Positions 52,618 to 55,658 of a stretch of DNA of 64,000 bases are shown here, one piece after another (within the stretch, counting starts at the first letter, position 1; every line of letters begins with the position of its first letter). A program made the translations under genes and the position numbers. This DNA is from Sulfuricurvum sp. (GTDB lineage: Bacteria; Campylobacterota; Campylobacteria; Campylobacterales; Sulfurimonadaceae), in assembly GCA_030696775.1 (NCBI GenBank), contig JAUYRN010000005.1, forward strand, positions 310,001 to 374,000, in the 5' to 3' direction. The notes under the pieces are model-generated. The model ran no database searches, was not told where the DNA came from, and saw only the letters and a program-made list of their open reading frames with translations.

Positions 52618-53067
52618 TTATTGTGCTTTTTCTAATTTGCGTAGCAAACGTGAAAGAATTTGAATCTCTTCTTCATTCAGTGCTGCATCATACATACCTG
52701 TCAAATTTACTACGTGTTCATGGAATATTGATTTCATAGCTGTTGACCCTTCTTCGGTTATCTCAAGAATTTTGATACGGCGATCTTCATCAGAAGGAAT
52801 GGATTTAATCAATCCTTTTGATTCAAGATTTTTAACGACTACCGTGATATTACCGGGGGTACTAAGGGTTAATTTGGTTATTTGACCAACGCTTAATTTT
52901 CCCAGATGGTATAAGGATTCTAAAATACCAAACTGGGGCAATGTAAGATCCCGATCTCCTAACCACGCTGTTTCTTTTGAACGGATTTTTGTAAGAGATC
53001 TAGAAAGCTCAATATGTGCACGTAAGACAATATCTTCATGTCTGCCATAACTTTTTGCACGTTTCAT
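52618..53067 (-). CDS. MarR-family regulator of the pirin-YceI-DODA cluster
   Basis: 149 residues. Winged helix: DLTLPQFGILESLYHLG, VGQITKLTLSTPGNITVVVKNLESKGLI and DEDRRIKILEITEEG. GGAG lies 6-8 bases before ATG 53067. The same 18-bp operator stands 34 bases upstream of this gene and again before pirin, so it probably represses both itself and the cluster and answers to phenols or quinones, as many MarR proteins do. Confidence 0.88.
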   Translation of the reverse strand: MKRAKSYGRHEDIVLRAHIELSRSLTKIRSKETAWLGDRDLTLPQFGILESLYHLGKLSVGQITKLTLSTPGNITVVVKNLESKGLIKSIPSDEDRRIKILEITEEGSTAMKSIFHEHVVNLTGMYDAALNEEEIQILSRLLRKLEKAQ

Positions 53068-53189: not shown

Positions 53190-53876
53190 TTAATTCATTT
53201 TTTCTCGTATTTCTTCTTCTAAAACTTTCATTAATTCTTTGTGGGTATAGCGGCTAAAAAGATATGTTTTGGCATTAAAAAGTGTTTCGAACATGATTTT
53301 CCAAAGGGTTGAAAAATTCTCATCCGTGCGTCTTTTACACAATTGTTTTTGTAATTGACACTCTAAATCGGCCATTACTTTTGCTTGGTGTACATAAGTT
53401 TTGAGCAGGGTGTATTCAAGGCCTACTTCGATGTAGTCTTCAATCAAACGGATTATAGATGCTTCTTTGTCGGTAAAGTTATCGTTGTTTGTCGGAACCA
53501 GAATATTATCTACTAAAAGTTGCTCGACCAATGCAGGGTCAACATCAAAATAATCTATAAACTCTTGTTTGGTGTAATATATTGCGGTGGTCGGGATGCC
53601 GCTCAACGTCTCCATGAGAGGTGCAAGCATTGAAAAAGAACTTGCCATCGATTGGTTTTTGTTCTGCAAAATTCCTTTGATTTGCTCAATTGAACTTCCC
53701 ATCTCTTGCTGCATGTATTTGATGTATTTGATCAGTTCGACATGCTCTTCATTGTAGCGGTGGACATTGGATTTTAGCTTTTTAGCTTCTGGAAGCAGCC
53801 CCTCTTTGATGTAGTATAAAATGGTTGATTTCGGAACATGGGTCAGCTCTACAAGCTCTGATATTTTATAGTCCAT
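53190..53876 (-). CDS. MerR-family regulator
   Basis: 228 residues. N-terminal MerR winged helix (YKISELVELTHVPKSTILYYIKEGLLP, then VHRYNEEHVELIKYIK) and a dimerisation helix (MGSSIEQIKGIL), followed by a ~130-residue helical ligand domain without the cysteine pattern of metal-sensing members. AAGGA precedes the ATG. Divergent from the deformylase-like gene, with a perfect palindrome between them. Confidence 0.85.
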   Translation of the reverse strand: MDYKISELVELTHVPKSTILYYIKEGLLPEAKKLKSNVHRYNEEHVELIKYIKYMQQEMGSSIEQIKGILQNKNQSMASSFSMLAPLMETLSGIPTTAIYYTKQEFIDYFDVDPALVEQLLVDNILVPTNNDNFTDKEASIIRLIEDYIEVGLEYTLLKTYVHQAKVMADLECQLQKQLCKRRTDENFSTLWKIMFETLFNAKTYLFSRYTHKELMKVLEEEIREKMN

Positions 53877-53903
53877 GATTTTCCTTGATTAATACGAATG
53901 TAA

Positions 53904-53922
53904 GAATTATACCCTATAATTC
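53904..53922. promoter_or_regulatory. Palindromic operator between merR and deformylase-like gene
   Basis: GAATTATA-CCC-TATAATTC, a perfect 8+8 inverted repeat, 28 bases before the MerR start and 72 before the divergent gene. Contains TATAAT on both strands, so binding would cover a -10. Confidence 0.65.
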
Positions 53923-53994
53923 AAAACGTATAGTGTAGCTTAACGCTTTACATTTACTTGCTTTAATTTTATCTGCAACTATCGAGGTTTTTAT

Positions 53995-54801
53995 ATGGTA
54001 CAACCATTACTCAAATATCCGGATCCTCGAATTCGTCTTATATCAGCTAACGTCCGTTTTTTTAATGATGAATTACTTCAATGGATCAATGATATGGTCG
54101 ATACGATGAAGGCGAATGATTTGGAAGCACTAAGTGCGATTATGATAGGTATTCAGTATAACGTCATTGTTATTAAAAACGAAGATGAGTATTTTCCCTA
54201 TATCAACGCGCGTTTGATCAAATGTATTGGAACTTCGAATCAAACCGAACGGAGTATTTATTATGAGGGGATCAGTGTTGATGTTGACCGATTTGATAAT
54301 GCAACGGTCATTTATGAAGACGTAAAAGGAGAAGCACATCATCAGGATCTTTCCGGTGATGCGGCACGTGTTTTTCAGCAGCAGCTTGATTACAGCTTCG
54401 GAAGTACCTTTGTTGATCGGGTAGATAAAGAAATGAAACAGCGAATCAATGACCATCTGGAATTCGGTCTTATCGCAAGCAGCTCAACTTGTCCTCTGGT
54501 ATTTGTTCGTGATTATTTCAAACGGGGAGCAAAATATGTGATGGCACTTATTTTTTTAAGCTTTATCGTACCATTTTTTGCTTCTGAAGAAGTACGCCAG
54601 TTGATCTATCAGATTGACATTTATCTTTTATTGGCCGTGCCGGTATTGATGATCGCTTATTTTTTCTATGCCCTGTATGAGTCCAGACTCTATAAACAGT
54701 GTACGAGTTGCCAGATAGGCAATATTATCGGTACGACAGCGATTATGGCCTCACAATTGCTGATTGTCGGTCTCGGCGTATTTTTCTGGGTTGCGCCGTA
54801 A
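53995..54801 (+). CDS. Degenerate peptide-deformylase domain fused to a membrane domain
   Basis: 268 residues. The first ~150 follow the deformylase fold: LLKYPDPRIRLISANV at the start, then LSAIMIGIQ at the place of GxAAxQIG, EGISV at the place of EGCLS (metal Cys replaced by Ile93), and FQQQLDYSFG at the place of QHExDHL (both His and the Glu replaced by Gln or Tyr). All four catalytic/metal residues are lost. Then three membrane helices (about 181-197, 208-228, 243-265), with a CTSC pair (Cys236, Cys239) between the last two. A dead deformylase used for binding, not catalysis, tethered to the inner membrane. GAGG 7 bases before ATG. Confidence 0.8.
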   Translation: MVQPLLKYPDPRIRLISANVRFFNDELLQWINDMVDTMKANDLEALSAIMIGIQYNVIVIKNEDEYFPYINARLIKCIGTSNQTERSIYYEGISVDVDRFDNATVIYEDVKGEAHHQDLSGDAARVFQQQLDYSFGSTFVDRVDKEMKQRINDHLEFGLIASSSTCPLVFVRDYFKRGAKYVMALIFLSFIVPFFASEEVRQLIYQIDIYLLLAVPVLMIAYFFYALYESRLYKQCTSCQIGNIIGTTAIMASQLLIVGLGVFFWVAP

Positions 54802-54848: not shown

Positions 54849-55271
54849 TTATACTTTTTCTAAAAAAGTTGTCAACGTTTGTTGGTGCTTGAGAAATGTT
54901 TCGTATTCTGCTTTTCCAAGAAAGTCCGACATTTTTTGTTCAGTCATGGCAATGATATTCAAAGATAACTCTATAAGCATCTCCCCTTTATCTGTCAAGA
55001 TAACGATTTTTTCTTTGCGGTTCAGAGGGCGAATTTCAAGCTTAATATAACCCAGTTTCACCAGTATGGTAATGCTTTTATGCATGGCCTGGCGGCTAAT
55101 CCCAAGAACACCTGCAAGAGAGCTAACACTCATAGGTTTTGCTTCAGCGAGATGGGCAAATATTCCAAGTAATGTTGGGGTAAGATCAGTAAAGCCTTCT
55201 TTTAAAAGATTTGTTAGGATGATTTGATTAAAAAAAGTGCTTGATTTTAGGGCATTAAAACAAAATGACAT
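54849..55271 (-). CDS. MarR-family regulator, divergent from ydhR-like gene
   Basis: 140 residues from ATG 55271 (AGG 8 bases upstream); a GTG at 55310 is also in frame but sits inside the promoter of the divergent gene. Winged helix: TPTLLGIFAHLAE, VSSLAGVLGISRQAMHKSITILVKLGYI, NRKEKIVILTDKG. Likely controls itself and the YdhR-like gene. Confidence 0.83.
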   Translation of the reverse strand: MSFCFNALKSSTFFNQIILTNLLKEGFTDLTPTLLGIFAHLAEAKPMSVSSLAGVLGISRQAMHKSITILVKLGYIKLEIRPLNRKEKIVILTDKGEMLIELSLNIIAMTEQKMSDFLGKAEYETFLKHQQTLTTFLEKV

Positions 55272-55282
55272 TGTAAACCTAG

Positions 55283-55311
55283 TTGACAATATGGTATCTA
55301 TCAAGTACACT
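55283..55311 (+). promoter_or_regulatory. Promoter of ydhR-like gene
   Basis: TTGACA (55283-55288), 17-base spacer, TACACT (55306-55311). The spacer and -35 form an imperfect palindrome TTGACAATATGG...CTATCAAG, likely bound by the divergent MarR protein. Confidence 0.75.
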
Positions 55312-55349: not shown

Positions 55350-55658
55350 ATGAATTTTCTTGTACAAGTTGATTTTCCGTATTATGGTCCTTTTGAAGAG
55401 GAAATGAGCAGTGCGATGCAAGGCTTAGCCGAAGACATCGCCAATGAATCTGGTTTAGTCTGGAAGATCTGGACCGAGTCTAAAGAGCAAAATATTGCAG
55501 GTGGGATTTATCTTTTTGACAATGAAGCAGATGCTAAACGTTATGTCTTGAAACACGAAGCACGGTTAACATCTTTTGGTATTAAAAATATCCGTTCTAT
55601 CATTTTTAAAACAAACGATTCCTTGAGTCAAATCGATAGGGCACCCTTAAATCGATAA
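55350..55658 (+). CDS. YdhR-type putative monooxygenase
   Basis: 102-residue ferredoxin-like alpha/beta dimer of the YdhR family: LVQVDFPYYGPFEEEM, LVWKIWTESKEQNIAGGIYLFD and the EADAKRYVLKHEARLTSFGI helix. E. coli YdhR resembles small monooxygenases of aromatic polyketides, without proven activity. Divergent MarR suggests induction by an aromatic compound. Confidence 0.88.
   Translation: MNFLVQVDFPYYGPFEEEMSSAMQGLAEDIANESGLVWKIWTESKEQNIAGGIYLFDNEADAKRYVLKHEARLTSFGIKNIRSIIFKTNDSLSQIDRAPLNR

Follow-up and report, generated by a model that had tools for sequence, protein, structure and literature searches.

A candidate pseudo-deformylase family with a membrane domain, linked to SQR genes in Campylobacterota

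What might a peptide deformylase (PDF) domain do once its active site is lost and membrane helices are fused to it? This question is raised by a gene at positions 53995–54801 (+ strand) of a Sulfuricurvum sp. window, by which we mean the whole stretch of 64,000 nucleotides that was analyzed. The gene was delineated by open reading frame listing, Pfam search and AlphaFold modeling and encodes a protein of 268 amino acids, here called dPDF-TM. Divergent PDF-like proteins exist. A preliminary description of the locus had stated that no protein of this plan was known; likewise, our literature search found neither a paper describing such a protein nor an earlier membrane-fused deformylase pseudoenzyme. 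Judged by its sequence, dPDF-TM is best explained as a member of an undescribed family of pseudo-deformylases (dPDF).

The fold landmarks noted earlier (EGISV, QQQLDYSFG and IGIQ) are present in the reading frame. Residues 3 to 147 (54001–54435, + strand) match the Pep_deformylase family of Pfam (PF01327, E 3.9e-27), and solved PDF chains in the PDB were matched at 3.4e-12 by the single sequence and at 3.9e-28 by a family profile. The cut-offs of the NCBIfam deformylase equivalogs were not reached, the best model giving 67 bits where 190 would be required. An AlphaFold model built from 46 sequences (mean pLDDT 87, pTM 0.65) shows a PDF fold and, after it, three long helices. Using Foldseek, the first ~160 residues of this model were matched to solved PDFs at 3.7e-15, with an rmsd of 1.6–1.9 Å and ~27% identity for the top hits and target TM-scores of ~0.85–0.94 for most of them. 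The fold of the N-terminal part, for which a non-deformylase prediction had been named as the decisive counter-evidence, is confirmed as that of a PDF at the level of structure prediction.

The active site has not been retained. In the window protein, the metal ligand Cys90 (E. coli numbering) is replaced by Ser87 (54253–54255, + strand), Gln50 by Met50, and the HEMDH motif reads QQLDY (residues 129 to 133, 54379–54393, + strand), lacking both histidines and the catalytic glutamate (H132 to Q129, E133 to Q130, H136 to Y133). The search for relatives with the same losses bears this out for three positions. All 101 family sequences carry Ser, Thr or Asn in place of Cys90 and Tyr, Phe, Met or Ile in place of His136, and Glu133 is absent from every one of them. 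The claim that the metal cysteine, both histidines and the glutamate are all replaced therefore holds for the window protein but does not extend to His132 across the family, where 15 of 101 sequences retain the histidine; Gln50 is kept in 77 of 101. Changes reach the substrate-lining glycines as well: G45 is Ala in 94 of 101 sequences, G89 is Arg, Ser, Lys, Thr or another residue in all sequences tallied, and G43 is also replaced. The structural residues E88, Q131 and D135 and an arginine near the R97 position are kept. A sulfide-sensing metal site, considered in view of the hydrosulfide-bound E. coli PDF structures 4az4 and 4al2, was discarded, since the metal ligands have been lost.

The PDF domain is joined to the membrane domain at a conserved Cys166-Pro167 (54490–54495, + strand). 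As described before, three membrane helices with a CxxC follow, and hydropathy and the AlphaFold model (helices 171–189, 198–232 and 234–266; 54505–54792, + strand) agree on them. Both also place C236-x-x-C239 between helices 2 and 3, within the motif C236-TS-C239-QIGNIIG (54700–54732, + strand) on the predicted cytosolic side. Positive residues are found next to helix 1 and within the CxxC loop, and by hydropathy and the positive-inside rule the PDF domain is predicted to lie in the cytosol. C166-P167 and C236-x-S-C239-Q-x-G-N are the conserved marks of this domain, although their invariance is inflated in the 101-sequence set, many members of which were recruited by a scan using those very motifs. 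The three cysteines are also kept in the divergent members L160 and L161, which are profile hits picked without the motifs. When the membrane domain was searched alone, Pfam returned no family and the PDB no matching chain (best E 0.26). A stand-alone ORF of 98 amino acids that resembles this membrane domain but has no PDF domain lies directly after the genes for sulfide:quinone reductase (SQR) and a microprotein in genome G246 (L170:4551-4844, 3.4e-6), the only stand-alone form among those read in a draw of 298 genomes of the class; two further weak matches (G195, G250) sit within longer frames. The G246 arrangement points to the membrane domain as the core of the protein.

Strong purifying selection acts on the gene, its dead domain included. 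Nei-Gojobori dN/dS against the nearest relatives was 0.06–0.09 for the whole gene and about 0.04–0.10 in the dead PDF domain and the membrane part alike, values that are approximate as synonymous sites are near saturation in the pairs compared. dPDF-TM is therefore not a decaying pseudogene.

The family is tied to the sulfide-oxidizing enzyme SQR. It occurs in 79 of 397 Campylobacterota class genomes, and SQR of one type was found in all 79; SQR without dPDF was found in 32 genomes and neither gene in 286. In 71 of the 79 genomes, SQR is followed on the same strand by a dPDF copy, at a median gap of 278 nt. Of the remaining eight, some have a contig end between the two genes, and G147 and G193 carry dPDF ~8 kb away from SQR. 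The arrangement spans Sulfuricurvum, Sulfurimonas, Sulfurovum, Nitratifractor and other lineages, and its maintenance over such phylogenetic distances is strong evidence of shared function: the dPDF family belongs to a sulfide-oxidation module. The absence of dPDF from 32 of 111 SQR genomes indicates that it is not essential to SQR. The window copy itself does not adjoin SQR; a second copy in the same genome (G000:C32:37649-38452) lies downstream of a flavoprotein of 489 amino acids that matches Aquifex aeolicus SQR at 5e-38. In an alignment, a 90%-type relative of this flavoprotein keeps the three catalytic cysteines of the A. aeolicus enzyme (C124, C156 and C347). By these comparisons, the enzyme beside dPDF is a genuine SQR. 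Its closest solved structure is the type I SQR of Aquifex (3hyv). Type IV is grouped with type I and found in every Sulfurimonas sequenced, and type VI is absent from S. denitrificans (PMC4584964). Given the statement on Sulfurimonas in that review and the likeness to Aquifex type I, the dPDF-linked enzyme is likely of type IV. In Sulfurimonadaceae, a hybrid histidine kinase (L031:7492-9414) and a response regulator (L031:9399-10148) stand beside the SQR-dPDF pair; the same two genes stay beside SQR where dPDF has been lost (L165, L167).

The gap between SQR and dPDF holds a further ORF of 50–58 amino acids with the consensus ...MxPxxFxxFxRTCxIWQFIRFxxINIKMxxVVxKSH, in which RTCxIWQ and a C-terminal KSH are the conserved features. 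Of 153 SQR loci, 150 carry this microprotein no more than 500 nt downstream of SQR, loci without dPDF among them, and in a separate draw it was found in 71 of 298 genomes, all 71 of which have SQR. Pfam and NCBIfam hold no model for it, and it is an undescribed protein. In the window's genome it is encoded once, at the SQR locus (L031:6349-6507, equal to G000:C32:37348-37506). In two Sulfuricurvum genomes (L076, L077) it is also found between MerR and the window-type dPDF.

The window copy is, by sequence comparison, a paralogue of the SQR-linked copy. MerR-linked Sulfuricurvum copies form one clade (support 98/97) nested within SQR-linked Sulfuricurvum copies, and MerR-linked Sulfurimonas copies are placed elsewhere in the tree, separate from that clade. 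These separate positions imply that the association of dPDF with MerR arose at least twice, with a separate move seeming to have occurred in Sulfurimonas, unless gene conversion blurred the history; conversion between the Sulfuricurvum copies could mimic a separate origin. In genome G010 the MerR-dPDF-CMD segment is present twice with equal score, on contigs C1 (L003) and C9 (L032), reflecting either a recent duplication or an assembly artefact.

The regulator is a MerR-family protein of 228 amino acids (53190–53876, − strand; PF13411, 6.4e-18) that adjoins dPDF-TM in relatives. It was correctly described as divergent from dPDF-TM across a perfect palindrome, GAATTATA-CCC-TATAATTC (53904–53922), in the divergent promoter region. 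The better operator candidate is probably an imperfect dyad next to it, AACGTNNAG-N5-CTTAACG (53924–53948), because it is conserved between genera, in the MerR loci of Sulfurimonas and Sulfuricurvum, and is the sole site of its kind in the window's genome when searched with a 5-base spacer and up to two mismatches; its left arm is decayed in the window. The intergenic block AAGAATTATACnnTATAAT...AACGnnAAG-N5-CTTAACG is common, with mismatches, to all scanned MerR loci except that of G028 (L197). No consensus sigma-70 promoter was found in a scan of 53850–54050. Other neighbours of the MerR regulator are CMD/AhpD-like, DsrE/DsrF-like and thioredoxin-like genes. Related MerR genes with DsrE-like and/or thioredoxin-like genes nearby were seen in some Sulfuricurvum genomes (L193–L196), three of which (G009, G020, G022) showed no dPDF in our search. 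Close relatives have a CMD gene after dPDF; the window has none there. Two MarR-family regulators (52618–53067 and 54849–55310) flank the MerR-dPDF pair, the second of them divergent from a ydhR-type mono-oxygenase (55350–55658).

Taken together, the lost active site, the membrane domain, the adjacency to SQR and the copy held by its own regulator suggest that the window protein probably serves sulfide oxidation as a partner without enzyme activity of its own. The biochemical role that we infer from these sequences, and to which we assign a probability of about 50%, is that of a membrane partner of SQR, in which the PDF fold docks and the cysteine-bearing membrane domain works. The cytosolic PDF domain would dock on SQR, the microprotein or both, and the function would reside in the membrane domain, with C166 and C236/C239 most likely handling sulfane sulfur or the thiol redox state produced by SQR. 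The window paralogue, probably under MerR control, may let the cell make the SQR partner apart from SQR. DsrE and thioredoxin-like genes in the MerR neighbourhoods back a partner role. A more specific proposal, which we offer tentatively and at somewhat less than even odds, is that SQR of Campylobacterota works as a three-part membrane complex of flavoenzyme, microprotein and a pseudo-deformylase, the cysteine-bearing membrane domain of which takes over sulfur or controls the enzyme.

The linkage to SQR would also fit with an assembly or membrane-delivery factor, in which freshly synthesized SQR or microprotein would be held by the dead PDF domain and delivered to the bilayer by the membrane domain, the cysteines being structural. 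Having once bound the N-termini of nascent chains, the PDF fold could have taken on a chaperone function, and SQR and microprotein are kept without dPDF in L165, L166 and L167, as would be expected for a dispensable factor. This explanation gives no reason for the conservation of the cysteines in CP and CxxC, for the presence of DsrE and thioredoxin-like genes at the MerR loci or for a membrane domain that occurs on its own, and we consider it unlikely, if worth keeping in mind. Poorer still are the prospects of a sulfide or redox sensor signalling to the adjacent hybrid histidine kinase and response regulator. Both genes do come after dPDF in the SQR loci of Sulfurimonadaceae, and the window copy shares a divergent promoter region with a regulator gene, but neither kinase nor regulator stands beside dPDF in Sulfurovum, Nitratifractor and other SQR-microprotein-dPDF loci, and their persistence beside SQR after the loss of dPDF also argues against such a pairing.

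The preliminary description had suggested that the protein may be a membrane-located sensor to which N-formyl-Met peptides or nascent chains bind. An intact PDF fold in the model and the retention of E88, Q131 and the arginine speak for it, yet the substrate-lining glycines have been exchanged, and the genes conserved nearby belong to sulfide oxidation (SQR, with DsrE and thioredoxin-like genes around MerR) and not to translation; we regard this proposal as highly improbable. Like the kinase-sensor explanation, it matches the phyletic pattern less well. That the protein is an active deformylase is suggested by a database name: in Sulfurovum mangrovi, the sole annotated relative from which we can speak of RefSeq naming, dPDF-TM lies in two pieces on plasmid NZ_CP087125.1 (L164:6001-6816), probably owing to a frameshift, downstream of an FAD-dependent oxidoreductase, and both pieces are called peptide deformylase. 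With all metal ligands and the catalytic glutamate missing from the window copy and a normal, separate def gene with intact motifs elsewhere in the genome (G000:C26:57496-57963), hardly any weight can be given to this name.

A role of the pseudo-deformylase as partner of SQR would be of wider relevance, as sulfide oxidation starts with SQR in those Campylobacterota that are frequent in sulfidic waters and at vents. The products of the different SQR types and the reason for having several of them are open questions (PMC4584964). Two conserved, unstudied SQR partners, one named peptide deformylase in an annotated record and the other small enough for annotation to miss, are direct targets in cultured Sulfurimonas for addressing the questions on SQR types. 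If the three-part complex is real, an enzyme of translation that lost its activity would have been put to new use in sulfide respiration.

Compared with known systems, dPDF shares with peptide deformylase (def, PF01327) its fold, its domain length and the structural residues E88, Q131 and D135. Unlike peptide deformylase, dPDF-TM lacks metal ligands and catalytic glutamate, has its substrate glycines replaced and is fused to three membrane helices, and its family is linked to SQR instead of translation genes. As in SQR loci of types I and IV (Aquifex aeolicus, 3hyv; Sulfurimonas type IV), the neighbour of dPDF is an SQR with conserved cysteines; the SQR literature that we searched made no mention of a deformylase-like or microprotein partner, and no paper describing the SQR-dPDF pair was found. 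The cysteine-based sulfur handling of DsrE, TusA and rhodanese carriers corresponds to the role proposed for dPDF, and DsrE genes lie near the same MerR regulator, although dPDF has no sequence relation to these carriers. A general parallel is offered by pseudoenzymes kept as binding modules, since the dPDF family has likewise lost its catalytic residues under purifying selection.
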